From NCBI GenBank assembly GCA_021324435.1, contig JAJPIZ010000038.1:62001-126000 (forward strand): a stretch of DNA of 64,000 nt, written 5' to 3'. This document shows, piece by piece, positions 1 to 64,000 of this stretch. The position numbers and the translations under genes were made by a program. The notes beneath the pieces were generated by a model. That model had not been told where the DNA came from. It made no database searches and saw nothing but the letters and a program-made list of their open reading frames with translations. Position 1 is the stretch's first letter; every line of letters starts with the position of its first letter. Source of the stretch: Anaerolineae bacterium (GTDB lineage Bacteria; Chloroflexota; Anaerolineae; Anaerolineales; Villigracilaceae).

Positions 1-14
1 CTCTGCGAAAGATC

Positions 15-266
15 ATGCGCCTGATGTTGCGCGAACTGGAATTGAATTATCCCCAACTGAAGGAAGCCATCGCCTCTCTCCCCGACGCAGAGCGGCTCCC
101 GATGAATGAAGTGGATGAGGCGCTGGATGTTCTGACCCGACAAGCCTGGCTGATTCGAATCGGCGCGGGCGAGAAGGCCATCTACAAAGTCAATTTGCGG
201 CGCAAAGCCGGGAGCACTGTTGCCAGCGGAATCTGGAACACGCTGGATTCGAAATTGAAGAAATAA
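15..266 (+). CDS. C-terminal part of an uncharacterised protein, probably starting upstream of the window
   Basis: Open frame to TAA at 264-266; helical sequence, no recognised family. Confidence 0.5.
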   Translation: MRLMLRELELNYPQLKEAIASLPDAERLPMNEVDEALDVLTRQAWLIRIGAGEKAIYKVNLRRKAGSTVASGIWNTLDSKLKK

Positions 267-278
267 ACTGCAATGCCC

Positions 279-329
279 TCTTTCATCTTTCTTCTTTCCC
301 GCAAATAAAAAAAGAAGAAAGATGAAAGA
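279..329. terminator. Strong hairpin between convergent genes, built from TCTTTCA/TCTTTCT heptads
   Basis: 19-bp perfect inverted repeat TCTTTCATCTTTCTTCTTT (279-297) / AAAGAAGAAAGATGAAAGA (311-329). Confidence 0.6.
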
Positions 330-386
330 AAAAGACCGTCCTATCACGGCGATCTTTTCATCAACGTTTTTTCGCACCTTTACAAC

Positions 387-1922
387 TTATTCTTTTCTTC
401 CAAGCAATTCAAAGATCGGCATCTCGGCGCTTTTGCCTTTCAGCGCCACTGTCCCCAAAGATTTGGTCTCAAACTGCGACGCGATGGCCGCTTGAATCTT
501 TCCGCTCAGGATGATCTGGTCTTTGCTGGCCTTATTCATCAGACGCGCCGTGGTATTCACCGTGTCGCCCAGCACGTTGAACTCGCGCCGGCCGCGCGGC
601 TCACCGATCTCAGCCACGAAGGTCGCGCCCTGATTGATCCCGATCTGGCATGTCACTTCGGGTTGAACGCCTCCCACTGTTGGCGGCTTGATCTGACGAA
701 CGATGTCGCGAATCGCCAGCGCCGCTTCCACTGCGCGAGCAGGATCGTTGGTGTGGGCGGTCGGCACGCCGAAATAAATCACGATGTCTGAGCCGGAGAG
801 ATGGTAGGTAATTTTCTTCAACACGCCGCCACGCGCTTCCACCGCCGCGTTGATCAAAGCAAACGCCCGCGAAAAACTGTTGACTACTTTGAGTTCCTCG
901 CCGGGCAGGGCGCGATCCACCATTTCGGGCAGGCCGAGGAAGTTGACGAACATCACGGTCGGTTCGGGGAAGTCCGGCGGGATGCGGCGCTCGGCGGCGC
1001 TTTCGACAAGCAGGTTCAAAACCGGCGCGGGAATGAAACTAGCCAGCGGCTCGATGGACTTCATCATCTCATCAATCTGGTTGAGCAGACCCGCAACGCC
1101 GCGTTCGAACAAAACATTGCTGGCCTGTCGGCGGCGCGGTGTGATCTCGTACTCGCCGAGTTGTTCATCGGTCAAATCATCAACGACCAGCATGTAACCG
1201 GTCTTGCCGGCCTCGAAACGGAAATCATCCTTGACGCGGTCGAAGGCTTTCAACGAAAGATTGACGCGTTCGTTCATGCCGTTGGACTCGGTCAGTTTGG
1301 CTAACTGCACGGCAGTGCCGAGCAAAACATGTTCCATGCGGCGCGGCGTCCCGATGTCAGCAGTGAGGAAGCGTCCGGCGTGGATGCCGATGCGCATCCG
1401 GAGTTGAAGCGGGCCTTCCGGCGTCTCGATTTGGGAAAAGTGTTTCATGGCGCGTTGCATCCGAAGTCCCGCGCGAACCGCCTGGAGCGTATCGTTACGC
1501 CGATCCACTTCCGGGAAGAAGGCAAACAGCGCGTCGCCGGTAAACTCCATCAAGTCGCCGCCCGATTTGCTGATAGTTTCGATCATCTCCGCGAAATACG
1601 CGTTGAGCACTTTGAGAAGCGAAGCCGCGCCGGCGCGTCCTTGCGAAGCATTGGCTTCCATGAGACGGGTGAAACCGGCCAGGTCGGTGAACATCAGCGA
1701 ACCGCGTCGCCACTCGTAGCGCACCTCCCCCGGACGCGGGGCATTCTCCGAGATCAAACGCGAAGTGTAATCATGCAGAATGCGCTGGAGCGTTCGCAAA
1801 TGTTCGAAGACGCGCTCCAGCATTGTCGGCGAAGGATCCACCCACACCGAAGCATACAAATCCGCGGGCAATAAAGGTCTTAATCGAGTTTCTATGGACG
1901 ATAAAGGAGAGGACGGCAACAT
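387..1922 (-). CDS. Tandem class III adenylate/guanylate cyclase-domain protein
   Basis: Two cyclase homology domains: SLMFTDLAGFTRLM...GDLMEFTGDALFAFFP and TVMFVNFLG...SGSDIVIYFGVP...NVLGDTVNTTARL. Confidence 0.85.
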   Translation of the reverse strand: MLPSSPLSSIETRLRPLLPADLYASVWVDPSPTMLERVFEHLRTLQRILHDYTSRLISENAPRPGEVRYEWRRGSLMFTDLAGFTRLMEANASQGRAGAASLLKVLNAYFAEMIETISKSGGDLMEFTGDALFAFFPEVDRRNDTLQAVRAGLRMQRAMKHFSQIETPEGPLQLRMRIGIHAGRFLTADIGTPRRMEHVLLGTAVQLAKLTESNGMNERVNLSLKAFDRVKDDFRFEAGKTGYMLVVDDLTDEQLGEYEITPRRRQASNVLFERGVAGLLNQIDEMMKSIEPLASFIPAPVLNLLVESAAERRIPPDFPEPTVMFVNFLGLPEMVDRALPGEELKVVNSFSRAFALINAAVEARGGVLKKITYHLSGSDIVIYFGVPTAHTNDPARAVEAALAIRDIVRQIKPPTVGGVQPEVTCQIGINQGATFVAEIGEPRGRREFNVLGDTVNTTARLMNKASKDQIILSGKIQAAIASQFETKSLGTVALKGKSAEMPIFELLGRKE

Positions 1923-1985
1923 AAAAAGATTATACTTGAAGTTATTTATAAGCCAACAAAATCCAACTTACTCAGAGGAGACGAA

Positions 1986-2771
1986 ATGAAAAACAAATTC
2001 TTAATTGTTGTATTGATCACCGCCATGTTTGTATTGGCCGCCTGCGGAGGACAGGCAACGCCCGTCAGCAACAGCGGAGGCGGACAGTCTGCGCAGAGTT
2101 CATCCTCCAGCGCCGCCGCGCCGGCCGCGGGCACGCCGATTTCAAAGAGCATCATGCTCGATCCCGCGCAGGCCAGCGATACAGATTCGCTTATGATCAT
2201 TGGCTACGTGTATGAGACTCTGATCAAGAATCAAGATGGTACGGCGGTTCCAGGTCTCGCCGCTTCCGCGACGCCCTCCGAGGATGGCCTGGCTTACACC
2301 ATTGCCCTGCGCCCGGGCGTAAGGTCCCATGACGGCTATCCAATCAACGCGGATGCGGTGATTGCCAACTTCAATCGCTGGTTCGATCCGAAGGATGCCG
2401 CGCACGGCTCCGGCATGTATGACGCGTGGGTCGCGGCCTTCAAAGGCTTCAAAGGCGAGACCAGTGCGGATGGCAAAGCCAAGTCCACGTTCGACGGCGC
2501 GGAAAAAGTGGATGACCTGACCGTGATCCTGCACTTGAACACGCCCGACCCGGATTTCCTTACGAAACTGGCCAACCCAGCCTTCTCCATCGTCAGCCCG
2601 GCGGCGTTCGGCGGGGCAGGATTTGGAACTTCAAGCGGCAATGACGGCGGCACCGGCCCGTACATGATCAGTTCCTTCACCGCTTCAAGCCTGACCCTTT
2701 CGCCGTTCGCCGATTACTGGAATCCCTCCGCCGCCGCAAGCGGGAACATGGATTTCTCGTTGAGCAAGTAA
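1986..2771 (+). CDS. Short lipoprotein related to the N-terminal lobe of peptide/nickel ABC substrate-binding proteins (SBP family 5)
   Basis: Lipobox LAAC; DPAQASDTDSLMIIGYVYETLI...GTGPYMISSF; only 261 aa against the usual ~500+. Confidence 0.75.
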   Translation: MKNKFLIVVLITAMFVLAACGGQATPVSNSGGGQSAQSSSSSAAAPAAGTPISKSIMLDPAQASDTDSLMIIGYVYETLIKNQDGTAVPGLAASATPSEDGLAYTIALRPGVRSHDGYPINADAVIANFNRWFDPKDAAHGSGMYDAWVAAFKGFKGETSADGKAKSTFDGAEKVDDLTVILHLNTPDPDFLTKLANPAFSIVSPAAFGGAGFGTSSGNDGGTGPYMISSFTASSLTLSPFADYWNPSAAASGNMDFSLSK

Positions 2772-2879
2772 AGCAATCCTCCCTGAGCGAGTGGCGCACT
2801 TTGTCACGAAGCCGAAGGGCGGGTTAACTTGCGCTTCGACTTCGGTCTAACAGTCTCCGCTCAGTGCGAAACAACAAAA

Positions 2880-2903
2880 GAGCCGCCCTCAAATGGGCGG
2901 CTC
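2880..2903. terminator. Rho-independent-type hairpin
   Basis: GAGCCGCCC tcaaat GGGCGGCTC. Confidence 0.65.
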
Positions 2904-2910
2904 AATTTCT

Positions 2911-4038
2911 TTAATGCGCTGTCCAGGCCGGTTCGCCATCGTATTCCTGACTGTTGGTCAGTTGAATCACTTCGTGCGTGGAGATAACGATCTGGTAAAT
3001 CTCCATGTTCTTGCCCGCGTCGGCCTGATAGACGAGGCGATAACCATCCGGCGACCAGACCGGGTCGCCTTTGACCGGCGCGGTCGTGACCAAAGTCTTG
3101 AGTGTGCGGTCGTTGACGTTGACCAGATCAATGGCCGGGTCACCGCCGCGCTGGGAGCGGAAGGCCAGCCACTGTCCATCCGGCGACCAGGATGGGACAC
3201 CGTTCTCCCACTGACTGCTGGTGAGACAGCGGCTGTTGCTCCCATCGCGATTCATCACACAGATATTCGCCACGCCTTGCGAGGAAAAGGATCGGAACGC
3301 GATCAGGCGTCCGTCCGGCGACCAGATTGGGTCGGAGTCCGGAGGCGTTTCGCTGGTCAGCGCAGTCAGGCCGCTTCCATCCGGCGAAACCAAATAGATA
3401 TTCGCGTTGACGTTATCGCGACTGCTCATGAAGGCGATGCTGTTTCCATCCGGCGACCAGACCGGGTTGGTGTCGCCCGCTTCGTTGTTCGTCAAACGTA
3501 TGAGGCCGCTTCCGTCAGCATTGATCACATAAATTTCAAGGTTGCCATCGCGAAACGATTCAAATGCAAGGTGCGAACCATCCGGCGACCAGGCAGGCGC
3601 GGCATCGCGGGCAGGATCATCGGTGAGGCGCGTCAGCGCGCCGCTGGAAACATCCACGATATAAACATCTGTGTTGTCTTTGAGTGTCGAAGCAAAGGCC
3701 ACGCGGGTCCCGTCCGGCGACCAGACGGGCGTTTCATCTTCGGAATCGCCGCGGGTCAACGCGCGTTGATTCGATCCATCCGCGTTCATGACATAGAGTT
3801 TCTTTTTGCCGTCGCGCGCGGAGACGAATACAATGTGTCCGCTCGCGGGAGGCGGCGGTTCGGGTGTGGGCGTATCATTGGGCGTCGGAGAAACGGCTCT
3901 AAAAATTGGCTCCTCCGTGGACGAAACGCCGCCCGTGCCAACAAGGTCAACGATGCTGAAGTTACAAGCCATCAGCAACAATGCAGTGATTCCCATCGTG
4001 AAGAAGGCAGGCAAGTTTTTGGGTTTGAGTTTTTTCAT
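2911..4038 (-). CDS. TolB-like/PD40 beta-propeller lipoprotein
   Basis: Lipobox LLMAC; repeated PxWSPDGxxIAFxS motifs. Confidence 0.85.
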   Translation of the reverse strand: MKKLKPKNLPAFFTMGITALLLMACNFSIVDLVGTGGVSSTEEPIFRAVSPTPNDTPTPEPPPPASGHIVFVSARDGKKKLYVMNADGSNQRALTRGDSEDETPVWSPDGTRVAFASTLKDNTDVYIVDVSSGALTRLTDDPARDAAPAWSPDGSHLAFESFRDGNLEIYVINADGSGLIRLTNNEAGDTNPVWSPDGNSIAFMSSRDNVNANIYLVSPDGSGLTALTSETPPDSDPIWSPDGRLIAFRSFSSQGVANICVMNRDGSNSRCLTSSQWENGVPSWSPDGQWLAFRSQRGGDPAIDLVNVNDRTLKTLVTTAPVKGDPVWSPDGYRLVYQADAGKNMEIYQIVISTHEVIQLTNSQEYDGEPAWTAH

Positions 4039-4071
4039 TCATCTCCATGGAGCGTGCTTGGATTATTAACA

Positions 4072-4112
4072 CAAACGACGCTGTGATTATACATTTTCGA
4101 CAGCGTCGTTTG
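4072..4112. repeat. 12-bp inverted repeat, possible terminator or operator
   Basis: CAAACGACGCTG - 17 nt - CAGCGTCGTTTG. Confidence 0.45.
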
Positions 4113-4211
4113 AATTTCAGAGTTGTTAGTACAGATGGGGGAAAATCCCTCAGCCTTTATCTTAGTCGCAGGAGCACTACCTAAAGGGTTGGACTAACAG
4201 AAATGTTAATC

Positions 4212-5111
4212 TCATTTGTCCTTGCGCTGAGAGCGCATGTCCTTGGCCCGATCCTTCAAATTCTTGAAATATTGAGTGTCGGTGATCTCCGCCACCTGTG
4301 ACTCGCGGCGTTTCTCGTCAATCTCGATGCGAAGTTTGGCAATCTCAGCCCGCAGTTTTTCTTCGCGGATGTACCCATCCAGCGCGGCAGATGCGAGGAG
4401 AACAAGCGCCTCGAGCACATCATCCGAGCCAAACGGAACGATCTCGCCCGTGCTCGGGTCCTTGGCGTTGATCAGTTGCAGGACGCCGATGACCTCCTTT
4501 TCCTTGCCTTCGAGCGGGATGGTCATGAATGATTTGGAACGATAGCCCGTATTTTTATCGAACGATTTTGTCCCCGAAAAATCAAAACCAGCAGATGTTT
4601 CATACGCGTCGGCAATCGTGACCTTTTGGCGGGTCAACGCTGCGTACGATGCGATGTTGGCGCGGTTCTCACTTCCATCGGAATTGTATAAAGGAACAGG
4701 ATTGAACGCGATCTCTCTCCCGCTCGTCCCACCCATGTCAATTTTCAAGGAGGCATTGCGCAGGATCACAAATCGCAGGGCGTTATCTTCCAGCAGATAT
4801 AACGTCCCCGCGTCGGCATTGGTCACGCTCTGCGCCTCGACTACGAGCGACTCCAGCAGACGATTGAAATCTTTCTCTGCGGAAAGCGCCACGCCAATCG
4901 GAATCACTTTCCGCAGAAGGCGCAACTGCTTGTAGCGGAAGGCGACGCCGCGCCCCATCGTGTCAATGACGCGCGCCAATTGTCCGATGTCGTCTTTCTG
5001 CTCGATCAAGTCCGCGAGAAGATGGGGATTGTACTCGCCCTCTTCCACGGCGTTGACCGCCTGCATGATGCGCTCGAGCGGAGTGTTCTTTTTGGAAGAA
5101 GATGCGTTCAT
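4212..5111 (-). CDS. GAF-domain protein with HAMP-like N-terminal segment
   Basis: GAF-like LLESLVVEAQSVTNADAGTLYLLEDNALRF...SFMTIPLEGKEKEVIGVLQLINA; ORF extends to 5138, ATG at 5111. Confidence 0.8.
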   Translation of the reverse strand: MNASSSKKNTPLERIMQAVNAVEEGEYNPHLLADLIEQKDDIGQLARVIDTMGRGVAFRYKQLRLLRKVIPIGVALSAEKDFNRLLESLVVEAQSVTNADAGTLYLLEDNALRFVILRNASLKIDMGGTSGREIAFNPVPLYNSDGSENRANIASYAALTRQKVTIADAYETSAGFDFSGTKSFDKNTGYRSKSFMTIPLEGKEKEVIGVLQLINAKDPSTGEIVPFGSDDVLEALVLLASAALDGYIREEKLRAEIAKLRIEIDEKRRESQVAEITDTQYFKNLKDRAKDMRSQRKDK

Positions 5112-5145
5112 AAAAGCGGGCTTCGGAAAGTATACCATGCGAAAA

Positions 5146-5180
5146 AAGTCACGGAGAAAAATTTTTTTTCTCCGTGACTT
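5146..5180. repeat. 16-bp perfect hairpin, possible terminator
   Basis: AAGTCACGGAGAAAAA ttt TTTTTCTCCGTGACTT. Confidence 0.5.
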
Positions 5181-5227
5181 GCGTTTCCGCGGCTTCGATA
5201 TTCAGTACCGGCTTTCGGAATGAACGA

Positions 5228-5512
5228 TTATTTTGGAGCGCTCTGATTCCTGATGGCATTGTACAGCCAGATGATCGCCAGCACGATCAGGACCAACACA
5301 CCCAATTGAATCAGGCCGGAGAACAAACCAAAGCCGCCCATCATGTGTCCGCCAAAGCCAAAACCGTTGTGCATCGGCATGTGCCAGCCATAACCCATCA
5401 TTCCATAGCCGCCATACGGCAGGAAGAAGCCCATGAGAAACGGCGCAGCGAACCATCCGATCACGAACAGGGCCAGCAGAATTCCGAGGATCCATTTCCA
5501 AACAGGTTTCAT
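5228..5512 (-). CDS. Small membrane protein with Met/His/Gly-rich loop
   Basis: Two hydrophobic segments flanking GGYGMMGYGWHMPMHNGFGFGGHMMGGFG; SD-like aggaggc upstream. Confidence 0.65.
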   Translation of the reverse strand: MKPVWKWILGILLALFVIGWFAAPFLMGFFLPYGGYGMMGYGWHMPMHNGFGFGGHMMGGFGLFSGLIQLGVLVLIVLAIIWLYNAIRNQSAPK

Positions 5513-5617
5513 TTCAGCCTCCTTTGTTTTTCCACATCATAAATCCGGGAGGTGAACATTCGATGAAGCGATTACAAAGATTCTGTAAAGATTTTGGGTT
5601 GGGATATACTTCAGGGC

Positions 5618-6226
5618 ATGACGCAACGCATCGGCATCTTCGGCGGGACGTTCGATCCGCCTCATCTCGGACATTTGATTCTGGCCTCCGAGGCCTGCGC
5701 CCAACTCAACCTGACGCGTTTGCTGTGGGTGCTAACGCCCACGCCTCCGCACAAACTCAGCCAACCGATCAGTCCGCTCGAAGACCGGCTCGCCATGCTC
5801 AAGCTGGCGCTTCAAGATGAGCCTGCGTTCGAACTTTCCACCGTCGAGATCGAACGCGACGGCCCACATTACACGCTGGACACGCTTCGCTTGCTGGCAG
5901 AGCAAAATCCAGGCGCGGACTTAATCCTCCTGCTCGGCGGCGATTCTCTGCACGACCTCCCCGCCTGGCATCGTCCCGCGGACCTCGTAGCGGCGTGCCA
6001 TCAAATCGGCGTGATGCGCCGTCCCGCCGACTCGATTGACCTCTCAGCGCTGGAAAAGAAAATCGCGGGAATCACGGCCAAAGTCAAGTTTATTGACGCG
6101 CCGCTGTTGGAAATCGCCTCGCGTGAGATCCGCCGCCGCGCGTCCGAAGGTCTGCCCTTTCGATATTATCTGCCGCGGTCGGTGTATGACTACATCATCG
6201 TACATAAGTTGTATCGAACGACGTGA
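5618..6226 (+). CDS. nadD: Nicotinate-nucleotide adenylyltransferase
   Basis: IGIFGGTFDPPHLGHLILASEA, LLLGGDSLHDLPAWHRP, EIASREIRRRASEGLPFRYYLPRSV. Confidence 0.93.
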   Translation: MTQRIGIFGGTFDPPHLGHLILASEACAQLNLTRLLWVLTPTPPHKLSQPISPLEDRLAMLKLALQDEPAFELSTVEIERDGPHYTLDTLRLLAEQNPGADLILLLGGDSLHDLPAWHRPADLVAACHQIGVMRRPADSIDLSALEKKIAGITAKVKFIDAPLLEIASREIRRRASEGLPFRYYLPRSVYDYIIVHKLYRTT

Positions 6227-6314
6227 CGCGCTAGCATCGCGCAAAGGGGCAATGGTATAATTTCGCGGCCAAATTGTAATTTTCCACGAGAGTGGTTTTA
6301 AGTAAGGAGTTCCC

Positions 6315-7070
6315 ATGTCAGGTCATTCCAAGTGGTCCACCATCAAACGCAAAAAGGGCGCGGCAGACGCCAAACGCGGCGCGATCTTTACGCGTCTCAC
6401 GCGCGAAATCGTGATGGCCGCCCGCGACGGCGGCGGCGATCCTGAATCCAATTTTCGCCTGCGTCTCGCCGTGGACAAAGCGCGCGCCGAGAACATGCCA
6501 AAAGATAATATCGAACGCGCCATCAAACGCGGCACCGGCGAAGACAAGGATGGTGCTGCCTTTGAAGAACTCATGCTCGAAGGCTACGGTCCGCATGGTT
6601 CGGCGATTCTCGTTGCCTGCGTCACCGATAATCGCAATCGCACCGTGGCCGATCTGCGTCATGCGTTCAGCAAGGCCGGCGGCAACATGGCTGAAGCGGG
6701 CGCGGTCAGCTGGCAATTTGACCGCAAAGCGTATTTTTCATTTCCATCCAGCCAGTTATCTTATGAAAAAGCATTTGATCTTGCGGTTGTTGCCGGCGCG
6801 GACGATGCAATAGACAGCGGAGACACAATCGAAATTTATGGACCGGTCGAAACGTTCAAGACCATCGCCAACGCGTTGCACCAAGCCAAGGTGACGCCTG
6901 ATGAGGCCGGTCTGCGCATGGTCGCCAAGCAGGAATTGGAACTCAACACCGAAGCCACTCTGCAAGTGATGAAAATGATCGAAGCCATCGAGGAACTCGA
7001 TGACGTGCAGGAGGTGTATCACAACGTCAAGTTCTCCGAGGAAGCGCTGGCCGCTCTCGAAGCCGCGTAA
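6315..7070 (+). CDS. yebC: YebC/PmpR (TACO1) family transcriptional/translational regulator
   Basis: MSGHSKWSTIKRKKGAADAKRGAIFTRLTREI signature. Confidence 0.95.
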   Translation: MSGHSKWSTIKRKKGAADAKRGAIFTRLTREIVMAARDGGGDPESNFRLRLAVDKARAENMPKDNIERAIKRGTGEDKDGAAFEELMLEGYGPHGSAILVACVTDNRNRTVADLRHAFSKAGGNMAEAGAVSWQFDRKAYFSFPSSQLSYEKAFDLAVVAGADDAIDSGDTIEIYGPVETFKTIANALHQAKVTPDEAGLRMVAKQELELNTEATLQVMKMIEAIEELDDVQEVYHNVKFSEEALAALEAA

Positions 7071-7077
7071 ATTTTTT

Positions 7078-7105
7078 TGTATGGGTGGGCGGCCCTGCCC
7101 ATACA
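7078..7105. repeat. Palindromic intergenic element
   Basis: TGTATGGG...CCCATACA directly after the yebC stop. Confidence 0.5.
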
Positions 7106-7113
7106 TTATTTGA

Positions 7114-7593
7114 ATGACCATCGCACTCGGCATTGATCCAGGGACAGCCACGACAGGTTACGGACTCGTCCGCCTCGAACCGGACGGAAATTTGGTCACC
7201 GTTAAATTTGGCGTGATCACCACCCCTAAGGATTCGTCCGCGCCGGCGCGGCTCGAAATGCTTTACAACCAATTGAACGAGTTGATCAATCTCCACCGCC
7301 CCGATACCGCCGCGGTGGAGAAATTGTTTTTTCAGCGCAACGTCAGCACCGCCATCGCAGTGGGACAGGCGCGCGGCGTCGTCATGCTTTCGCTGGCACA
7401 ACATAAATTGGAGGCATTCGAGTACACACCGAACGAAGTCAAGCAGGCAGTCGCAGGTTACGGCTCCGCGGATAAACAGCAGGTGCAAGAGATGGTGCGG
7501 ACATTGCTTCAATTGGATTCCATTCCCAGGCCCGATGACGCCGCTGATGCATTGGCAATTGCCATCACGCATTTGAATACGAAACGATATTGA
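7114..7593 (+). CDS. ruvC: Crossover junction endodeoxyribonuclease RuvC
   Basis: TIALGIDPGTATTGYGLV, AAVEKLFFQRNVSTAIAVGQARGVV, DDAADALAIAITH. Confidence 0.95.
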   Translation: MTIALGIDPGTATTGYGLVRLEPDGNLVTVKFGVITTPKDSSAPARLEMLYNQLNELINLHRPDTAAVEKLFFQRNVSTAIAVGQARGVVMLSLAQHKLEAFEYTPNEVKQAVAGYGSADKQQVQEMVRTLLQLDSIPRPDDAADALAIAITHLNTKRY

Positions 7594-7599
7594 TGCCCT

Positions 7600-7628
7600 G
7601 TAGGGGCACAGCGACGCTGTGCCCCTAC
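7600..7628. repeat. REP-like palindrome, copy 1
   Basis: GTAGGGGCACAGC-GAC-GCTGTGCCCCTAC; identical copy at 34690-34718. Confidence 0.85.
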
Positions 7629-7658
7629 TTCATCCCGCATTTACGGTAAAATCAAATC

Positions 7659-8234
7659 ATGATCGCAACTCTGCGCGGCGAAATCACGCAAATCGAAGAC
7701 AACGCCCTCGTGCTCGAAGTCGGCGGCGTGGGACTGCGCGTCTTTGTCCCGGCGCCGCTACGAGGACGGATGAAAACCGGCGAAGCCGTATTTTTGTTCA
7801 CCCACCTCATCGTCCGGGAAGATGCGTTGACGCTTTACGGATTCGAGTCACAGGCCGAGCGCGAGTTGTTCAACATCCTGCTCGGCGTGGATGGAGTCGG
7901 CCCGAAAGTCGCGCTATCAGTTTTATCTTCAATGACATTGGACGCCGTTCAACGTGCAGTTTTCGCCGACGAAACAGATTTGTTCAGCCGCGTGCCCGGC
8001 GTTGGAAAAAAAACCGCGCAGAAGATCGCGCTTCATCTGAAAGATAAACTCAAACCCAGCGATGCGCTGGCGAAGGTCGCGGCCATGTCTGATAAAGACA
8101 GCGAAGTGCTGGCCGCGCTGACCGCCCTCGGATATTCGGTGGTCGAGGGCCAATCTGCGATCCAGTCCATTCCCAAAGACGCGCCCGACGACGTTGAGGA
8201 AAGACTGCGGATCGCGTTGCAGTATTTTCAATAA
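7659..8234 (+). CDS. ruvA: Holliday junction branch migration protein RuvA
   Basis: MIATLRGEITQIEDNALVLEVGGVG, GVDGVGPKVALSVLS, VPGVGKKTAQKIALHLKDKL. Confidence 0.95.
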   Translation: MIATLRGEITQIEDNALVLEVGGVGLRVFVPAPLRGRMKTGEAVFLFTHLIVREDALTLYGFESQAERELFNILLGVDGVGPKVALSVLSSMTLDAVQRAVFADETDLFSRVPGVGKKTAQKIALHLKDKLKPSDALAKVAAMSDKDSEVLAALTALGYSVVEGQSAIQSIPKDAPDDVEERLRIALQYFQ

Positions 8235-8309
8235 TCAGCATTCAGCGATCAAGTATCCAGTGGCGGACAAAACATCCGCCACTTTGTTTATAATGAAATC
8301 GGAGGCGTC

Positions 8310-9158
8310 ATGTCGAAAAGGAAAATTGCATTCATCGGTCCCGGCGTGATGGCGGAAGCCATGATCGCGGGACTGCTTCGCCAGAAACTTGCCCAGCCCG
8401 AGGACATCACCGCTTCGGGTCCGCGCTCGGAGCGGACCGCGGAACTCCATAAACGATACAACATCCGGGCCAGCACAGATAACGCATCCGCCGCGCATGA
8501 AGCGGACGTGATCGTGCTCTCCGTCAAGCCTCAGCGACTCAGCGAAGTGATGAAAGGTCTCAAAGGCATCCGCGCCGACGCGCTGGTGCTTTCGATTGTG
8601 GCGGGCGCATCCATCAAAAAGATCAGCGCGGGCTTGAAACATAAAGCCATCGTACGCTCCATGCCGAACACGCCGGGACAGATCGGCGAGGGCATCACGG
8701 TCTGGGCGGCATCGCACGAAACGACCGATGAACAACGCAAAACGGCGCGACGAATTCTGAGCGCGCTGGGCGAGGAGGTCTTTGTCGAAGACGAAAGTTA
8801 TCTCGACATGGCCACCGCGCTATCCGGCACCGGTCCCGCGTACGTCTTCCTGTTCACCGAGGCCCTGATAGACGCAGGCGTGCACATGGGATTCCCGCGC
8901 CGCATCGCCGAGCAGCTGGTTTTACAGACCATCAAAGGTTCGGCAGATTTTTACAAGCAGGCCGAGAAACATCCGGCTACGTTGCGGAATCAAGTCACGT
9001 CGCCGGGCGGGACCTCGGCCGAGGCGTTGTATTATCTGGAAAAGGCCGGTTTCCGCACCGCGATTTCGCGCGCCGTGTGGGCCGCATATCAACGCTCGTT
9101 GGAGTTGGGCAAGGAAAAACCCGGGCATATTGATACACACGATGAAGAAGAGAAATGA
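8310..9158 (+). CDS. proC: Pyrroline-5-carboxylate reductase
   Basis: KIAFIGPGVMAEAMIAGLL; VRSMPNTPGQIGEGITVWAA; ALSGTGPAYVFLFTEALIDAGVHMG; VTSPGGTSAEALYYLEKAGFRTAI. Confidence 0.95.
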   Translation: MSKRKIAFIGPGVMAEAMIAGLLRQKLAQPEDITASGPRSERTAELHKRYNIRASTDNASAAHEADVIVLSVKPQRLSEVMKGLKGIRADALVLSIVAGASIKKISAGLKHKAIVRSMPNTPGQIGEGITVWAASHETTDEQRKTARRILSALGEEVFVEDESYLDMATALSGTGPAYVFLFTEALIDAGVHMGFPRRIAEQLVLQTIKGSADFYKQAEKHPATLRNQVTSPGGTSAEALYYLEKAGFRTAISRAVWAAYQRSLELGKEKPGHIDTHDEEEK

Positions 9159-9365
9159 AACCGCCGGAGCGATTTGAAACCGAACGGCTTATCCTGCGCC
9201 AGCCATGCAGGGATGACGCGCCCGCAATCTTGCAGTTGTGAATTGGTCGCTGACACAACCCGATTTATCGTGTGTTTGCAACTTGTGATGTTGAAAATAT
9301 CGCCTCGGCACCCGAATGTCAGCGATAAACCGCGCGGTAGTTACATGTATGCAATTGTGAAATAG
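9155..9365 (+). pseudogene. Remnant of a RimJ/RimL-type GNAT acetyltransferase
   Basis: MKPPERFETERLILRQPCRDDAPAILQL* (9155-9241), HNPIYRVFATCDVENIASA after an in-frame stop (from 9254), HPNVSDKPRGSYMYAIVK* in another frame (to 9365). Confidence 0.8.
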
Positions 9366-9459
9366 CCCTACCTCGTCCTCCCCAAATCCATGGATTGGGG
9401 GATCGCGCATCAGTCGATGGGTGAGGCAATTCGTTTGCTTGTTTTATAATTCGGGGGCA

Positions 9460-9503
9460 TTCAATACTGATTACTGGTCACTATGTCACTGATCACTGTA
9501 AAC
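9460..9503. repeat. Degenerate 7-nt tandem array (ACTGATT/ACTGGTC/ACTGATC)
   Basis: tactgattactggtcactatgtcactgatcactgtaaa; overlaps the ABC-F start codon at 9483. Confidence 0.7.
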
Positions 9504-11483
9504 TCCCTCTCCAAATCCTTCGGCGCGGAAGATTTATTTTCCGGCGTCTCGTTTTCCGTCGCCAAAGGCGCGCGGCTGGCGCTGGTCGGGCCGAACGGCA
9601 TCGGCAAGACCACCCTCCTGCGCATCCTGATCGGCGAGGAAGAACCGTCCTCTGGCACTGTCACGCGCGCAAAGAATCTACGCATTGGCTATCTCTCGCA
9701 GGAAGCAGACTTTGAATTAAAAGGTGTTCTGTGGGACGTGTGCCTTGAGCCGTTCGCAGACCTGATCCGCATGGCTGGGGAACTGGAAAAACTCGAAAGC
9801 GAAATGTCCGATCCCATTAAACGGGAACCGGCTTTGGTCCGGTATGGCGCGCTTCAGCATGAGTTCGAGCGGCGCGGCGGATACGTTTATCAAGTCCGCA
9901 TCGAACAAGTATTGACCGGTCTCGGATTCGACAAATCCGATTTTCATATGTCGCTCGATCATCTCTCCGGCGGACAGCGCACGCGCGCTCATCTGGCGCG
10001 TCTGCTGTTGTCGAATCCAGATTTGCTGTTGCTTGATGAGCCGACCAATCACCTCGACATCAAAGCCGTTGAATGGCTCGAAAGTTATCTCACGCAATGG
10101 GAAGGCGCGGCGGTCATCGTTTCGCACGACCGTTATTTTCTCGACCATGCCTGCAACGCGTTGCTCGAGATGGCCGTGAGCGGCGCGGAATATTATCGCG
10201 GCAATTACAGCGCCTATTTGCAGGAGCGCGAGATTCGCTGGAACCATCGCTTTGAAATTTTCGAAAGCGAAAAAGAAAAGCTCTTGAAAGAAGTTGAATA
10301 CATCAAGAAAAATATTTCGGGGCAAAATACATTGCAGGCCAAGGGCAAACTCAAACGGCTCACGCGCGTCGTGCAAGCCATCGAGCAGGTCGGCATGGAT
10401 GCGGTCACCAGCGCGAACTGGTCGCAGTTGGACGTGGAAACGACGACTTCACCTTTTAGTGTGGATGAGGCCGAGCGACGCGTGCGCGCGCTGAGGCCGC
10501 CCGTCCGCGTCTTGCCGGACCTTCATCTGCATCTGCGTTCGACGGCGCGCTCGGGCGATTTGGTGATTCGCACGCGCAACATTGAAGTGGGTTACCCGGG
10601 CAAACTTCTTTTCCGCGCGCCGGATATCGAATTGCGACGAACGGATTGCGCGGCCCTGATTGGACCTAACGGCGCGGGCAAATCCACTTTTTTGAAAACG
10701 ATCCTCGGTCAAATCGGACCGTTGGCCGGCGAGGTGATTCTGGGAGCGAGTCTACACGTCGGCTATTTCGCGCAAGCTCACGAGGGACTCGATCCTGATA
10801 AAACGGTGCTCGATGAAATCCTCGATGCGTCGCCCGGTATGTTGCCGTATCAGGGACGCGACTATCTCGGCAAATATCTTTTCACCGGCGACGACGCGTT
10901 CAAAAAAGTGTCCATGCTCTCCGGCGGCGAACGCGGACGATTGGCTTTAGCAAAACTTGCGATGCAAGATACAAATTTATTATTGCTCGACGAACCGACG
11001 AACCATCTCGACATCACCTCGCAGGAAGTCTTGCAATCCGTGTTGGACACGTACAAAGGCACGATCCTGTTGGTATCGCACGACCGCTACCTCGTGGACG
11101 CGCTGGCAACGCAAATCTGGGAAATCAACCCGGACGAATCCCAGATGACCGTCTTCAAAGGCACGTATTCGCAGATGAAGGAAGAACGCGAAAAGGAAGC
11201 GGTGCGACTGTCGGCATCTCCAATTCCCGATTCACGAATTTCGGTTCCCGCCAAACGAAAAGCGCAAAACTCAGGAACGAAAGATGAAAGAAGAAAGATT
11301 GCCAAAGTGCAGGAACTCGAGAACGCCATCGCTGAACTCGAGGCGACGCTGTCTAATCTCAGCGCGCAACTTGAGAGTCCGCTTGTGAAACCGGACGAAG
11401 TTGCCATCATCGGAAAAGAATACGAACGGATTCAAAGAGAGATGGATGAGAAGTTAGGTGAATGGGAGAGGATGCAAGAATAA
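9483..11483 (+). CDS. ABC-F family ATP-binding protein
   Basis: Two ABC domains: GPNGIGKTTLL/LSGGQRTRAHLARLLLSNPDLLLLDEPTNHLD and GPNGAGKSTFL/LSGGERGRLALAKLAMQ..LLLDEPTNHLD. Confidence 0.95.
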   Translation: MSLITVNSLSKSFGAEDLFSGVSFSVAKGARLALVGPNGIGKTTLLRILIGEEEPSSGTVTRAKNLRIGYLSQEADFELKGVLWDVCLEPFADLIRMAGELEKLESEMSDPIKREPALVRYGALQHEFERRGGYVYQVRIEQVLTGLGFDKSDFHMSLDHLSGGQRTRAHLARLLLSNPDLLLLDEPTNHLDIKAVEWLESYLTQWEGAAVIVSHDRYFLDHACNALLEMAVSGAEYYRGNYSAYLQEREIRWNHRFEIFESEKEKLLKEVEYIKKNISGQNTLQAKGKLKRLTRVVQAIEQVGMDAVTSANWSQLDVETTTSPFSVDEAERRVRALRPPVRVLPDLHLHLRSTARSGDLVIRTRNIEVGYPGKLLFRAPDIELRRTDCAALIGPNGAGKSTFLKTILGQIGPLAGEVILGASLHVGYFAQAHEGLDPDKTVLDEILDASPGMLPYQGRDYLGKYLFTGDDAFKKVSMLSGGERGRLALAKLAMQDTNLLLLDEPTNHLDITSQEVLQSVLDTYKGTILLVSHDRYLVDALATQIWEINPDESQMTVFKGTYSQMKEEREKEAVRLSASPIPDSRISVPAKRKAQNSGTKDERRKIAKVQELENAIAELEATLSNLSAQLESPLVKPDEVAIIGKEYERIQREMDEKLGEWERMQE

Positions 11484-34689: not shown

Positions 34690-34718
34690 GTAGGGGCACA
34701 GCGACGCTGTGCCCCTAC
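34690..34718. repeat. REP-like palindrome, copy 2
   Basis: Identical to 7600-7628: GTAGGGGCACAGCGACGCTGTGCCCCTAC. Confidence 0.85.
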
Positions 34719-60203: not shown

Positions 60204-60235
60204 AAAAGCGGCGACCGTTCCGGTCGCCGCTTTTT
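60203..60235. terminator. Bidirectional intrinsic terminator
   Basis: AAAAAAGCGGCGACCG...CGGTCGCCGCTTTTT. Confidence 0.9.
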
Positions 60236-61062
60236 CATTCCTCGCGCGCTCGCTTCACGAGAGTTTGTATATTCCGCTTGTGCAGGGCATCTGCCAGACC
60301 GCCCAAATACACGCGGCTTTTGCCGCTCTCCTCGATTCCGGCAGGTTCCACATCGCCATCTGACTTGCGGCGCGCCGCGGCTTTGGCAAACTTTTTGATG
60401 TTGGAAAGATAGGTCAGGTTCTCTTTGACCGCGGCATCAATTTCGCCACGCAAGATAATATCTCCGTGGCCCTGTACGATGTTCTCCAGGCCCATGCGCC
60501 CGATCTTTTTGATCGAGGATACGATATCGTCAACGTCACCGTCCACAATGTAGGGAAGCGGCATGAACGCATCGCCCGCGAATAGAACGCGGTCCTCTTC
60601 CACCAGCACTGCGATTCCGTCATGGCTATGGCCGGGGACAGGGACAATGGTCAGATTCTTTTTTCCAACGCGCAGATTCAACTCACCGCTGTCAAACGTA
60701 AGATGAGGCAGGACGATCTTCACCTGCCTCAGCGCCGGGTTTTGTTTGCGCGCCGATTCAAGAGAGGGTTTGCCGCGCTCGTCCAGCAAATCGCGGCAAC
60801 GCGCGTGGGCCACAACCGTCGCGCCGGGGAAGAAACAATTGCCCCAGGCATGATCTGCGTGATAATGAGTGTTGATCACATAGCGAACGGGAACGCCCAA
60901 TTCATGTTCAATGAACTCGCGCATCCCCAAAGTCTCGTCAGGGAGAGCCAATGTATCAATCACCACCGCCCATTGCGGCCCGGCCACAACACCGGCTGTC
61001 ACTTGAGCATAGACCTCGCTTTGGAACCAAAACACATTTTCTGAAATACGTTCTCGATGCAT
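60235..61062 (-). CDS. MBL-fold metallo-hydrolase
   Basis: VINTHYHADHAWGNCFFPGA; VPVPGHSHDGIAVLVEEDRVLFAGDAFMPLP; VQGHGDIIL. Confidence 0.92.
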   Translation of the reverse strand: MHRERISENVFWFQSEVYAQVTAGVVAGPQWAVVIDTLALPDETLGMREFIEHELGVPVRYVINTHYHADHAWGNCFFPGATVVAHARCRDLLDERGKPSLESARKQNPALRQVKIVLPHLTFDSGELNLRVGKKNLTIVPVPGHSHDGIAVLVEEDRVLFAGDAFMPLPYIVDGDVDDIVSSIKKIGRMGLENIVQGHGDIILRGEIDAAVKENLTYLSNIKKFAKAAARRKSDGDVEPAGIEESGKSRVYLGGLADALHKRNIQTLVKRAREE

Positions 61063-61264: not shown

Positions 61265-62926
61265 ATGGCTACAAATCTGCTGGTGGTGACGCCCAGTCCA
61301 AATTTTGGAGATTTGATTCGCCGCTCCCTTGAAGAGACGGGGAATTATCGCGTGTTCGTTGTGAACAGCAAAGCTTCTGCTATCGTTCGCGCAGACGAAG
61401 AATCCTGCAAGATGGCCTTCCTTGATCTTGACATGGGTGAGCCGTGGGTGGAAGACGTTGGCAGATCTCTGCGAACCGTTTTGCCCAGCATTGACCTCTT
61501 CGTTCTGACTCAAAACGAAACTCCTCCCGCGCTCGATAACATCCGCCCGTGGACACTGGTCCGCAAGCCATTCCAGGTGCAGGAACTGCTCCGGGCTGTA
61601 GCGCAGCCTGAGCAGACCTCTGCCCCTTCGACACCCTCAATTCCATCAAATACAGAAAACGACATGCCGTGGATGAACGACGTCAGCAAGGCCGCGCAAC
61701 ATCTCACCAGACTCACATTAGAGTCTTCCTCTCAAGCGGCGCTGATCACGCGCAAAGGTGAACTGTGGGCCTATGCCGGGCAACTTCCTCAGGATACCGC
61801 GCACGAAATCGTTCAGACTCTGGTTCGAAATTGGAAAGCACAAAAAGGCAGTGACCTGTTACGTTTTGTCCGCTTGGAAAGCACAAAAGCCGAGCACATG
61901 TTGTACGCGACCGAACTTGCACCAGATGTGTTGCTCGCCATGGTTTTCGATGCCGAGACGCCGTTCAGCACCATTCGTTCGCAAGCCAGCCAATTGGTGA
62001 CATCGCTCGATGAAAATGGAACCAGGGAAGAGAAGAACGACAACTTTACCTCACCGAAAAATGCGAGGCAGGAAACCCTCGAACAGGTCACCAGCGAAGT
62101 CGAGGGCGACGATGACGTTGACGTCCCATCAATTTCTGAAATCCTAACAGACATCCCATCGCCAGATCCGAAGAAACCAGTGGCCGCGTCGAATCAATTG
62201 CCGGTCGCCCCCGCTTCAAGTCCGGACCTGAAGCGGCCAGCCGATCTCACGCAGACTCGACCCTCGATCTTCTCCTACGAATCTTCACGGCCCGTCCCCC
62301 TCAAAGATATATTGATCGCGGACCAGCAACCCACCCCGAATACTCTTGCTGAAACGCGCGCCTCGAAGTCTACGCTGGATGGACTCGAAGTCACTGCGCC
62401 ATCCAAATCACAGCCGCGGCCCGAAACGCCGATCCGCATGCCCAAGCCTGGCGAACTCGATGAGACGCGCCCACATTCTGCCAATGAAGCGGCGGAACAT
62501 GTCGTCCTCGAACCGGTCTCAGCCGGCATGTATCATTTGACGTATGCGTGCCTGCTGGTGCCGCGCTTTACATCGCATTATCTGACCGGCGACATCGCCG
62601 ACAGACTCTCGGAATGGCTTCCTCAAATCTGCCTCTCGTTCGGATGGCGGCTTGAGCATCTCGCCGTGAGACCTGAATATTTGCAATGGGTGGTGAACGT
62701 GCCGCCTGCGGCATCGCCCGGTTATCTGATGCGCATCATGCGCCAGCAGACCTCCGACAAAATTTTCAACGAGTTCCCGCGTTTGACAAAGGAAAATCCC
62801 TCCGGCGATTTCTGGGCGCCCGGTTATCTCATCATGGGCGGGACTCAGCCTCCTCCTCCGCAACTCGTCAAGGACTACATCAAACAAGTTCGCACGCGGC
62901 AGGGGATCGAAAAGCCACGTCATTGA
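61265..62926 (+). CDS. Pseudo-receiver / roadblock-like / degenerate Y1 (IS200-type) transposase-fold fusion protein
   Basis: N-term LLVVTPSPNFGDLIRRSLEETG...AFLDLDMGE...LVRKPF; middle SSQAALITRKGELWAYAGQLPQDTAHEIVQTL; C-term YHLTYACLLVPRFTSHYLTGDIADRLSEWLPQICLSFGWRLEHLAVRPEYLQWVVNVPPAASPGYLMRIMRQQTSDKIFNEFPRL...FWAPGYLI...VKDYIKQ. Confidence 0.75.
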   Translation: MATNLLVVTPSPNFGDLIRRSLEETGNYRVFVVNSKASAIVRADEESCKMAFLDLDMGEPWVEDVGRSLRTVLPSIDLFVLTQNETPPALDNIRPWTLVRKPFQVQELLRAVAQPEQTSAPSTPSIPSNTENDMPWMNDVSKAAQHLTRLTLESSSQAALITRKGELWAYAGQLPQDTAHEIVQTLVRNWKAQKGSDLLRFVRLESTKAEHMLYATELAPDVLLAMVFDAETPFSTIRSQASQLVTSLDENGTREEKNDNFTSPKNARQETLEQVTSEVEGDDDVDVPSISEILTDIPSPDPKKPVAASNQLPVAPASSPDLKRPADLTQTRPSIFSYESSRPVPLKDILIADQQPTPNTLAETRASKSTLDGLEVTAPSKSQPRPETPIRMPKPGELDETRPHSANEAAEHVVLEPVSAGMYHLTYACLLVPRFTSHYLTGDIADRLSEWLPQICLSFGWRLEHLAVRPEYLQWVVNVPPAASPGYLMRIMRQQTSDKIFNEFPRLTKENPSGDFWAPGYLIMGGTQPPPPQLVKDYIKQVRTRQGIEKPRH

Positions 62927-62944
62927 TTCAACGTATAATTGAAG

Positions 62945-62985
62945 AGCGCAGAGATCGCAGAAAATCAATTTCCGCGCTCTGCGCT
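62945..62985. terminator. Intrinsic terminator
   Basis: AGCGCAGAG...CTCTGCGCT + T-tract. Confidence 0.75.
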
Positions 62986-63007
62986 TTTTTATTATGCAAT
63001 CACCTCT

Positions 63008-63052
63008 ACCGCATACTGCCTACTGCTCACTGAATACCGATTACTGACCATG
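63008..63052. repeat. 7-nt tandem array ending in the polA start codon
   Basis: GCATACT GCCTACT GCTCACT GAATACC GATTACT GACCATG. Confidence 0.75.
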
Positions 63053-64000
63053 CCTCCCACTTTCTACCTCATTGACGGACACGCCCTCGCCTACCGCATG
63101 TATTTCGCATTGACAGCCGGCTCCAGCACGCAACGCTGGCAGACATCCAAAGGCGAACCCACCGCGGGCATCTACGGTTTCGCGCGTGAACTGCTCCGCA
63201 TCCTCGAACAGGAAAAACCCGAATACCTCGCGGTCGCGTTCGACACAGGCAAAACTTTTCGCGATCAAATCTTCCCGGAATACAAAGGCACACGCGCCAA
63301 AATGCCCGACGACCTGCGCCCGCAGATGGAGCGCATTCGCCAACTCGTGGATGCCTTCAACATTCCGCGCCTCGAAATGGAAGGTTACGAAGCCGACGAT
63401 GTATTGGGTTCGGTGGCGCGCCTCGCCAATGAGCAGGGGCTTGGCGTGAAGATCATCACCGGCGACCGTGATCTTTTGCAACTCGTCAACAAACGCACCG
63501 CGGTCTATCTTGCGGGCGATGATCAGAATTACATCACCGATGAAGATGTGACGAAAAAACTGGGCGTACCTCCCGCCCAAATCGTGGACTACAAGGCCAT
63601 CGTCGGCGACAAATCCGATAACATCCCCGGCGTGCCGGGCGTCGGCGAGAAGACCGCCATTTCATTGCTCCAAAAATTTGGCTCGCTCGATTCGATTTAT
63701 CAAAACATAGATCAAGTCGAGAACCGCTGGAAATCAAAACTCGAATCGGGCAGGGCCTCCGCGTTCATGAGCCGCGATCTGGCGCAGATCAAGACCGATC
63801 TCAAAGTGAAACTCGACCTCGAACACGCCAAATCCCACGACTTCGACCCGGACAAGATCGAAGCCTTCTTCACGGAATTGGAATTTCGCTCGCTCATCAA
63901 GACCCTCAAACGGCTGACCGGCAAAGAAGACTCATCTTACTCTGCAAACACTTCCGCCAAACAGCCCGCGGGACAACTTTCGATGTTCGTCAACGAGCCG
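63050..64000 (+). CDS. polA: DNA polymerase I, N-terminal 5'-3' exonuclease part (truncated by window end)
   Basis: FYLIDGHALAYRMYFAL; LAVAFDTGKTFRDQIFPEYKGTRAKMPDDL; VGDKSDNIPGVPGVGEKTAISLLQKFGSLD. Confidence 0.93.
   Translation, partial: MPPTFYLIDGHALAYRMYFALTAGSSTQRWQTSKGEPTAGIYGFARELLRILEQEKPEYLAVAFDTGKTFRDQIFPEYKGTRAKMPDDLRPQMERIRQLVDAFNIPRLEMEGYEADDVLGSVARLANEQGLGVKIITGDRDLLQLVNKRTAVYLAGDDQNYITDEDVTKKLGVPPAQIVDYKAIVGDKSDNIPGVPGVGEKTAISLLQKFGSLDSIYQNIDQVENRWKSKLESGRASAFMSRDLAQIKTDLKVKLDLEHAKSHDFDPDKIEAFFTELEFRSLIKTLKRLTGKEDSSYSANTSAKQPAGQLSMFVNEP

Follow-up and report, generated by a model that had tools for sequence, protein, structure and literature searches.

A transposase fold without its catalytic centre is conserved in a receiver-roadblock protein encoded beside polA in Anaerolineae

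The DNA analysed here, called the window, is a stretch of 64,000 nt from an Anaerolineae bacterium of the Villigracilaceae (GCA_021324435.1, JAJPIZ010000038.1, positions 62,001-126,000). Close to its end, between a divergent gene for an MBL-fold hydrolase and the 5' part of polA, lies a gene whose product joins four parts: a degenerate receiver, a roadblock/LC7-like domain, a linker and the fold of a Y1 transposase (Table 1). A full-length AlphaFold2 model built with 55 orthologues is confident over residues ~1-113, 136-250 and 422-546. The region between the last two, which the first-pass annotation had described as a long Ser/Pro-rich linker, has the properties of one: residues 253-419 are modelled with low confidence and evolve fast.

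Table 1. Features of the polA end of the window (positions are those of the window)
Feature	Position	Strand	Basis and remarks
Divergent MBL-fold hydrolase	60235..61062	-	Identified from sequence; neighbour in 34/71 orthologues
Receiver-roadblock-linker-HUH-less Y1 gene	61265..62926	+	553 aa; ATG 61265, stop 62926
Degenerate receiver, residues 1-115	61265..61609	+	AlphaFold2, Foldseek; weak by sequence
Roadblock/LC7-like domain, residues 136-252	61670..62020	+	Foldseek to MglB and Rag C-terminal domains; weak MglB NCBIfam match
Ser/Pro/Thr linker, residues 253-419	62021..62521	+	pLDDT mostly <50; highest dN of the four parts
Y1-transposase fold without catalytic residues, residues 422-547	62528..62905	+	Pfam, NCBIfam, phmmer, AlphaFold2, Foldseek; lowest dN of the four parts
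Codons Y472-L473-Q474, HUH metal-site position	62678..62686	+	2ec2 alignment, orthologue alignments
Codon Y538, catalytic Tyr position	62876..62878	+	Tyr here; Phe in 47/77 relatives
G+C-rich hairpin then T6, probable terminator between the gene and polA	62941..62990	+	Fold; missed by simple scan
polA (DNA polymerase I, 5' part, runs off the window)	63050..64000	+	Identified from sequence

The C-terminal part matches Pfam Y1_Tnp over residues 423-541, with E values of 1.7e-13 (whole protein) and 1.3e-14 (domain alone) and a cut-off of 23 bits, and the protein also scores over the cut-off of the NCBIfam IS200 model. Among solved transposases, phmmer matches 2ec2 (E 2.2e-11), 2f4f, 2fyx and 2xm3. 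A Foldseek search with the Y1 part of the AlphaFold2 model returns 2ec2 (E 1.8e-9) and 2fyx (TM 0.80, rmsd 2.8). Modelled alone from a shallow alignment, the domain reaches a pLDDT of 57.6; in the full-length model the same domain lies at ~77-93. The first-pass annotation had read this part as a Y1 transposase fold and had staked that reading on a structural match to Y1_Tnp. The four methods agree with it, and the structural matches are to IS200/IS605 transposases.

The catalytic centre of the transposase has been lost. In the phmmer alignment, Y472-L473-Q474 sits under the HIH of 2ec2, which confirms the codons at which a replacement of HUH by Y-L-Q had been placed at first reading. Both HUH histidines together are found in none of 77 HUH-less relatives (fused and standalone proteins, compared over the Y1-like part only), as opposed to 13 of 13 Chloroflexota transposases in the same alignment. 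The loss of the two histidines, proposed earlier as a point to check in orthologues, is therefore conserved. The first HUH position is Tyr in 64 of the 77 relatives, with Phe, Trp, Leu, Cys or His in the rest, and the second is mostly Gln. At the position of the catalytic Tyr there are 47 Phe, 29 Tyr and 1 Leu, and the +4 Gln, the third metal ligand, is replaced in 74. The comparison transposases from the same phylum (n=13) all have HUH and Tyr, and 10 of them have the +4 Gln. The Y-x-x-x-Q motif is thus missing across the relatives, since its Tyr is mostly Phe and its Gln is gone. The earlier remark that a Tyr remains in the terminal helix holds for the window protein, in the form of Y538, but it does not hold for most of the family. 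On these losses of HUH, third ligand and Tyr an active transposase was rejected, and they support the earlier prediction that the protein would lack cleavage activity. Trp451, Trp461, Tyr472 and Trp475 are new relative to the transposases and are conserved.

A match is present in 96 of 100 family genomes, nearly always as a full-length open frame of ~490-630 aa, and only a few orthologues contain a stop. Y472 and Q474 are invariant in 55/55 named orthologues, a count biased by the partial use of the motif P[ED]Y[LV]QW in fetching that set; the 96/100 genome survey and the HUH count in the 77 relatives are free of this bias. Nei-Gojobori estimates with seven orthologues give a dN of 0.07-0.15 for the Y1-like part versus 0.33-0.67 for the linker. 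The dN/dS of the Y1-like part is 0.06-0.12 where dS could be estimated, with synonymous sites near saturation. Near-universal orthologues, low dN and the invariance of Y472 and Q474 together indicate, at the level of sequence, that the replaced HUH site is under constraint and is not decaying. As a rule, the fused gene is present once per genome and is fixed beside polA, and the survey of the genome and the family found no multiple copies at varied sites. Highly mobile orthologues, which had been named as evidence against a recruited fold, did not appear; single copy and fixed synteny prevail. The domain is an old domestication rather than a case of local decay.

The N-terminal part matches the Pfam receiver over residues 6-112 with an E value of 4e-5, under the Pfam cut-off, and Foldseek relates this part of the model to the Spo0F receiver 1srr (TM 0.80). 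The middle part has no meaningful Pfam match, and Robl_LC7 gave no match over the cut-off for the 553-aa protein. Its Foldseek matches are MglB (6hjm, 6izw and 6h5b, TM ~0.6) and the C-terminal domains of Rag GTPases. AlphaFold2 and Foldseek thus confirm both the receiver and the roadblock/LC7 assignments of the first reading. Receiver residues D54 and K101 are retained in 53/55 rows of the alignment, and the acidic metal-binding pair is changed to Thr, Pro or Ser. The full residue set of a response regulator (acidic pair, phospho-Asp, Thr/Ser and Lys) is incomplete, the acidic pair being absent. Several orthologues of ~430 aa have no receiver and retain the other parts, and D54 is lost in some distant members. 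Phosphorylation of the receiver is probably not essential, because the acidic pair is lost and the receiver itself is missing in some orthologues. Small Arf-like GTPases and other roadblock genes elsewhere in the window's genome are candidate partners; no GTPase gene was seen in the conserved neighbourhood of the fused gene.

In 72 of the 78 named orthologues with enough flanking sequence, the next gene downstream is polA, on the same strand. The upstream MBL-fold gene is conserved in 34/71, and genes further off in about a quarter. polA also adjoins relatives that are only ~24-30% identical and belong to other families (f2, f11, f21, f49, f57). Terminator-like hairpins are present in 44 of 70 orthologous gaps before polA. 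As a result, a simple operon with polA was rejected, and co-transcription of the two genes appears unlikely in most genomes. Since a terminator usually separates the two genes, their linkage could reflect position and not function. Some family genomes have a second, more divergent full-length paralogue (L058, L059, L060, L061, L062, L072), with no polA match in the fetched flanks.

The HUH-less Y1 domains apparently have a single origin. In a tree of 90 domains, obtained by a quick search without bootstrap and rooted with Chloroflexota transposases only, all HUH-less sequences fall on one side of a branch with an SH-aLRT of 99, or 98 when the motif columns are left out. Searches with roadblock and Y1-part profiles found fusions in further families of the class (f21, f35, f36, f47, f49, f56) and, within the same order, in f2, and the roadblock profile had no match outside the class in the sampled genomes of the phylum. 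At the polA locus of G543 (L296) and G108 (L297), receiver-roadblock proteins are present without the Y1 tail, so the tail was either gained by such a protein or lost there.

HUH-less Y1 genes also occur as free-standing genes of ~145-230 aa in the window's genome and in further family genomes. These standalone copies form two main clades in the 90-domain tree and have two gene settings. In one setting (9-11 loci), the genes that follow the Y1 gene code for an Mrr-like endonuclease homologue, a TPR protein, a 7TM histidine kinase and a NarL-type regulator. In the other (up to 7 loci), a methyl-accepting chemotaxis protein (MCP) is encoded alongside, and several of these loci also encode CheW, MotA and MotB. 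The fold is thus found repeatedly in the company of signalling proteins. The copy in the window's own genome (L033, C16:21001-41000, 1-10346) is followed by Mrr-like and TPR proteins, a 7TM histidine kinase and NarL-type regulators, and the Mrr catalytic residues appear degenerate by eye in some relatives of this cluster. In other family genomes, L034, L035, L037, L038, L040, L045 and L049 have a standalone copy beside MCP genes, several of them with CheW, MotA/MotB and DUF1521. The window's genome encodes two Y1 proteins, both HUH-less, and no HUH-bearing one. A PADLOC defence search gave no match for the Y1 proteins and candidate matches only for the Mrr-like and TPR neighbours of standalone copies.

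Known Y1 transposases are dimers and bind hairpins through basic surfaces. At 15 positions that are mostly Lys or Arg in the sampled transposases, the fused domains have lost most of the basic residues, and the standalone and distant relatives almost all of them. The mean net charge is +7.8 in the transposases, +2.6 in the fused domain of the family, and -0.7 and -5.6 in the other HUH-less groups; standalone and distant members are neutral to acidic. Arg434, Arg462, Arg469, Arg493 and Arg543 are still conserved in the fused domain. In a 464-kb sample of the window's genome, palindromes are mostly singletons and many are terminator-like, and neither a REP-rich organisation nor an abundant REP-sized palindrome family was found. 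The only dispersed palindrome family found, GTAGGGGC...GCCCCTAC, has 12 copies in this genome. Its stems vary with pairing kept, and the genome has no Y1 transposase to explain the copies. One near-perfect member, GTAGGGGCACAGCGACGCTGTGCCCCTAC, is identical at window positions 7600-7628 and 34690-34718. A different repeat, at window positions 3029-3729, has six copies of 35 nt with a spacing of 132-135 nt and probably marks a gene for a repeat-containing protein. Across the class, the palindrome family has 0-23 copies in gene-bearing family members and up to 110 in a class genome without a match to either domain profile of the gene, and palindrome abundance has no association with the fused gene. 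The proposal that dispersed palindromes are the ligands thus finds no support in the 464-kb scan, the genome count or the class-wide count. The first-pass annotation had offered hairpin binding or oligomerisation as the role of the module. The former is weakened by the lost basic positions and the fall in charge, and the latter, as dimerisation or protein interaction, now leads. Dimerisation or partner binding is favoured because basic positions are lost, the charge falls and the palindromes do not follow the gene.

The protein is probably a host signalling scaffold with a non-catalytic Y1 module for dimerisation or interaction, and not a transposase. The earlier proposal that a transposase fold was recruited into a signalling protein agrees with the architecture and with the conserved orthologues. 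In an Anaerolineae ancestor, a receiver-roadblock protein encoded beside polA would have acquired the fold of an IS200/IS605 transposase as its C-terminal part. HUH and the third ligand Gln, which form the metal site, would then have been lost, the nucleophile would no longer have been selected (Tyr or Phe), and strong purifying selection would have preserved the fold itself. Known transposases with the Y1 fold are dimers; in the scaffold, the fold may now act as a dimerisation or partner-binding module, and the family-specific patch W451/W461-R462/Y472-x-Q474-W475 is its likely interaction surface. The roadblock domain may engage an MglA-like GTPase, and the receiver would probably not rely on phosphorylation. 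A broader proposal is tentative: the HUH-less Y1 fold may form a class of its own among signalling domains, derived a single time from a transposase in Chloroflexota and used both as the tail of the receiver-roadblock scaffold beside polA and as a free-standing adaptor in two-component and chemotaxis clusters, and the polA-linked form may report on or regulate replication or repair.

The HUH-less domain might instead still bind structured ssDNA (hairpins, forks) without cutting it, and the protein would then link a signal to replication or repair, perhaps together with the product of the neighbouring gene, DNA polymerase I. Such a role would fit a fold known from a hairpin-binding transposase that targets the lagging strand, and IS608 TnpA is thought to interact with the sliding clamp (PMC6006769). 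It would also fit the conservation of the polA neighbourhood across the class, the conserved arginines that are left and the remaining positive charge of the fused domain. However, this role is unlikely when most of the basic positions of the transposases are gone, standalone and distant members are neutral to acidic and the few dispersed palindromes do not track the gene. The standalone copies adjoin kinases and chemoreceptors and not replication genes, and a terminator-like hairpin usually lies in the gap to polA. In a mechanistic variant of the scaffold explanation, a phosphorelay has its output in the Y1-like tail, and receiver phosphorylation controls the dimerisation of that tail. The retention of D54 and K101 favours this variant, but the changed acidic pair, the ~430-aa orthologues without a receiver and the distant members without D54 make it rather improbable.

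The other two alternatives are much less probable. An enzyme that cleaves through other residues (Y472, Q474, Y538) could account for the invariance of the first two among the named orthologues and for the Tyr at position 538 in the window. It is very improbable, since the nucleophile position is mostly Phe in the relatives, the +4 ligand is lost and the gene is single-copy with fixed synteny. In the last alternative, a signalling gene reads through into an IS200 copy in decay, and the fusion is recent, accidental or an artefact of annotation. Decay is common among IS200 copies, and a survey of Y1 proteins dropped members of unexpected length, taking them for fusions or annotation errors (PMC6006769). 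Nevertheless, the full-length open frames in nearly all of the 96 genomes with only a few interrupted orthologues, the strong purifying selection, the fixed neighbourhood and the single origin in the tree refute this explanation, and its probability is negligible.

In the open-access literature, we found no description of a signalling protein that has a HUH-less Y1 domain, or of a receiver-roadblock-Y1 fusion. The 2018 classification defines the Y1 family by its HuH/Y core and left out members of unexpected length, which it regarded as gene fusions or annotation errors (PMC6006769). The case described here is family-wide and apparently of single origin: the catalytic centre is gone, the fold is retained, and it has spread into signalling systems by fusion and as free-standing genes. 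It is also a warning for annotation, as HUH-less signalling genes score above the cut-off as IS200 transposases. Because polA is a constant neighbour, a link of a roadblock scaffold to DNA replication or repair can be tested directly.

The protein resembles several known systems in part. It shares the fold of IS200/IS605 TnpA (2ec2, 2f4f, 2fyx, ISDra2 2xm3, IS608 2vhg) and is clearly homologous to it in sequence along ~120 aa, but it has lost HUH, Y-x-x-x-Q and mobility, and it is fused to a receiver and a roadblock domain as a single-copy gene with fixed synteny. With response regulators it has the N-terminal receiver fold in common; in contrast to them, its acidic pair is lost, it has no known output domain, and its receiver is dispensable in some orthologues. 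Roadblock proteins work with small GTPases and kinases (PMC4316618). MglB-type roadblock/LC7 and conservon systems have the same roadblock fold, and the standalone paralogues here likewise have signalling neighbours. Unlike in those systems, the roadblock domain shares one polypeptide with a receiver and a Y1 fold, and no GTPase gene was seen in the conserved neighbourhood. TnpA-REP/RAYT proteins are likewise domesticated, low in copy number and vertically inherited, but the HUH/Y core is lost in the family described here, and in the window's genome neither a REP-sized palindrome family nor a HUH-bearing Y1 protein is present. TnpA-REP is the recognised domesticated form of a prokaryotic Y1 protein, and it retains HUH and Tyr and acts on REPs (PMC8266576). 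In contrast to that form, which keeps its catalytic core, the family described here is a domesticated transposase that keeps only its fold.
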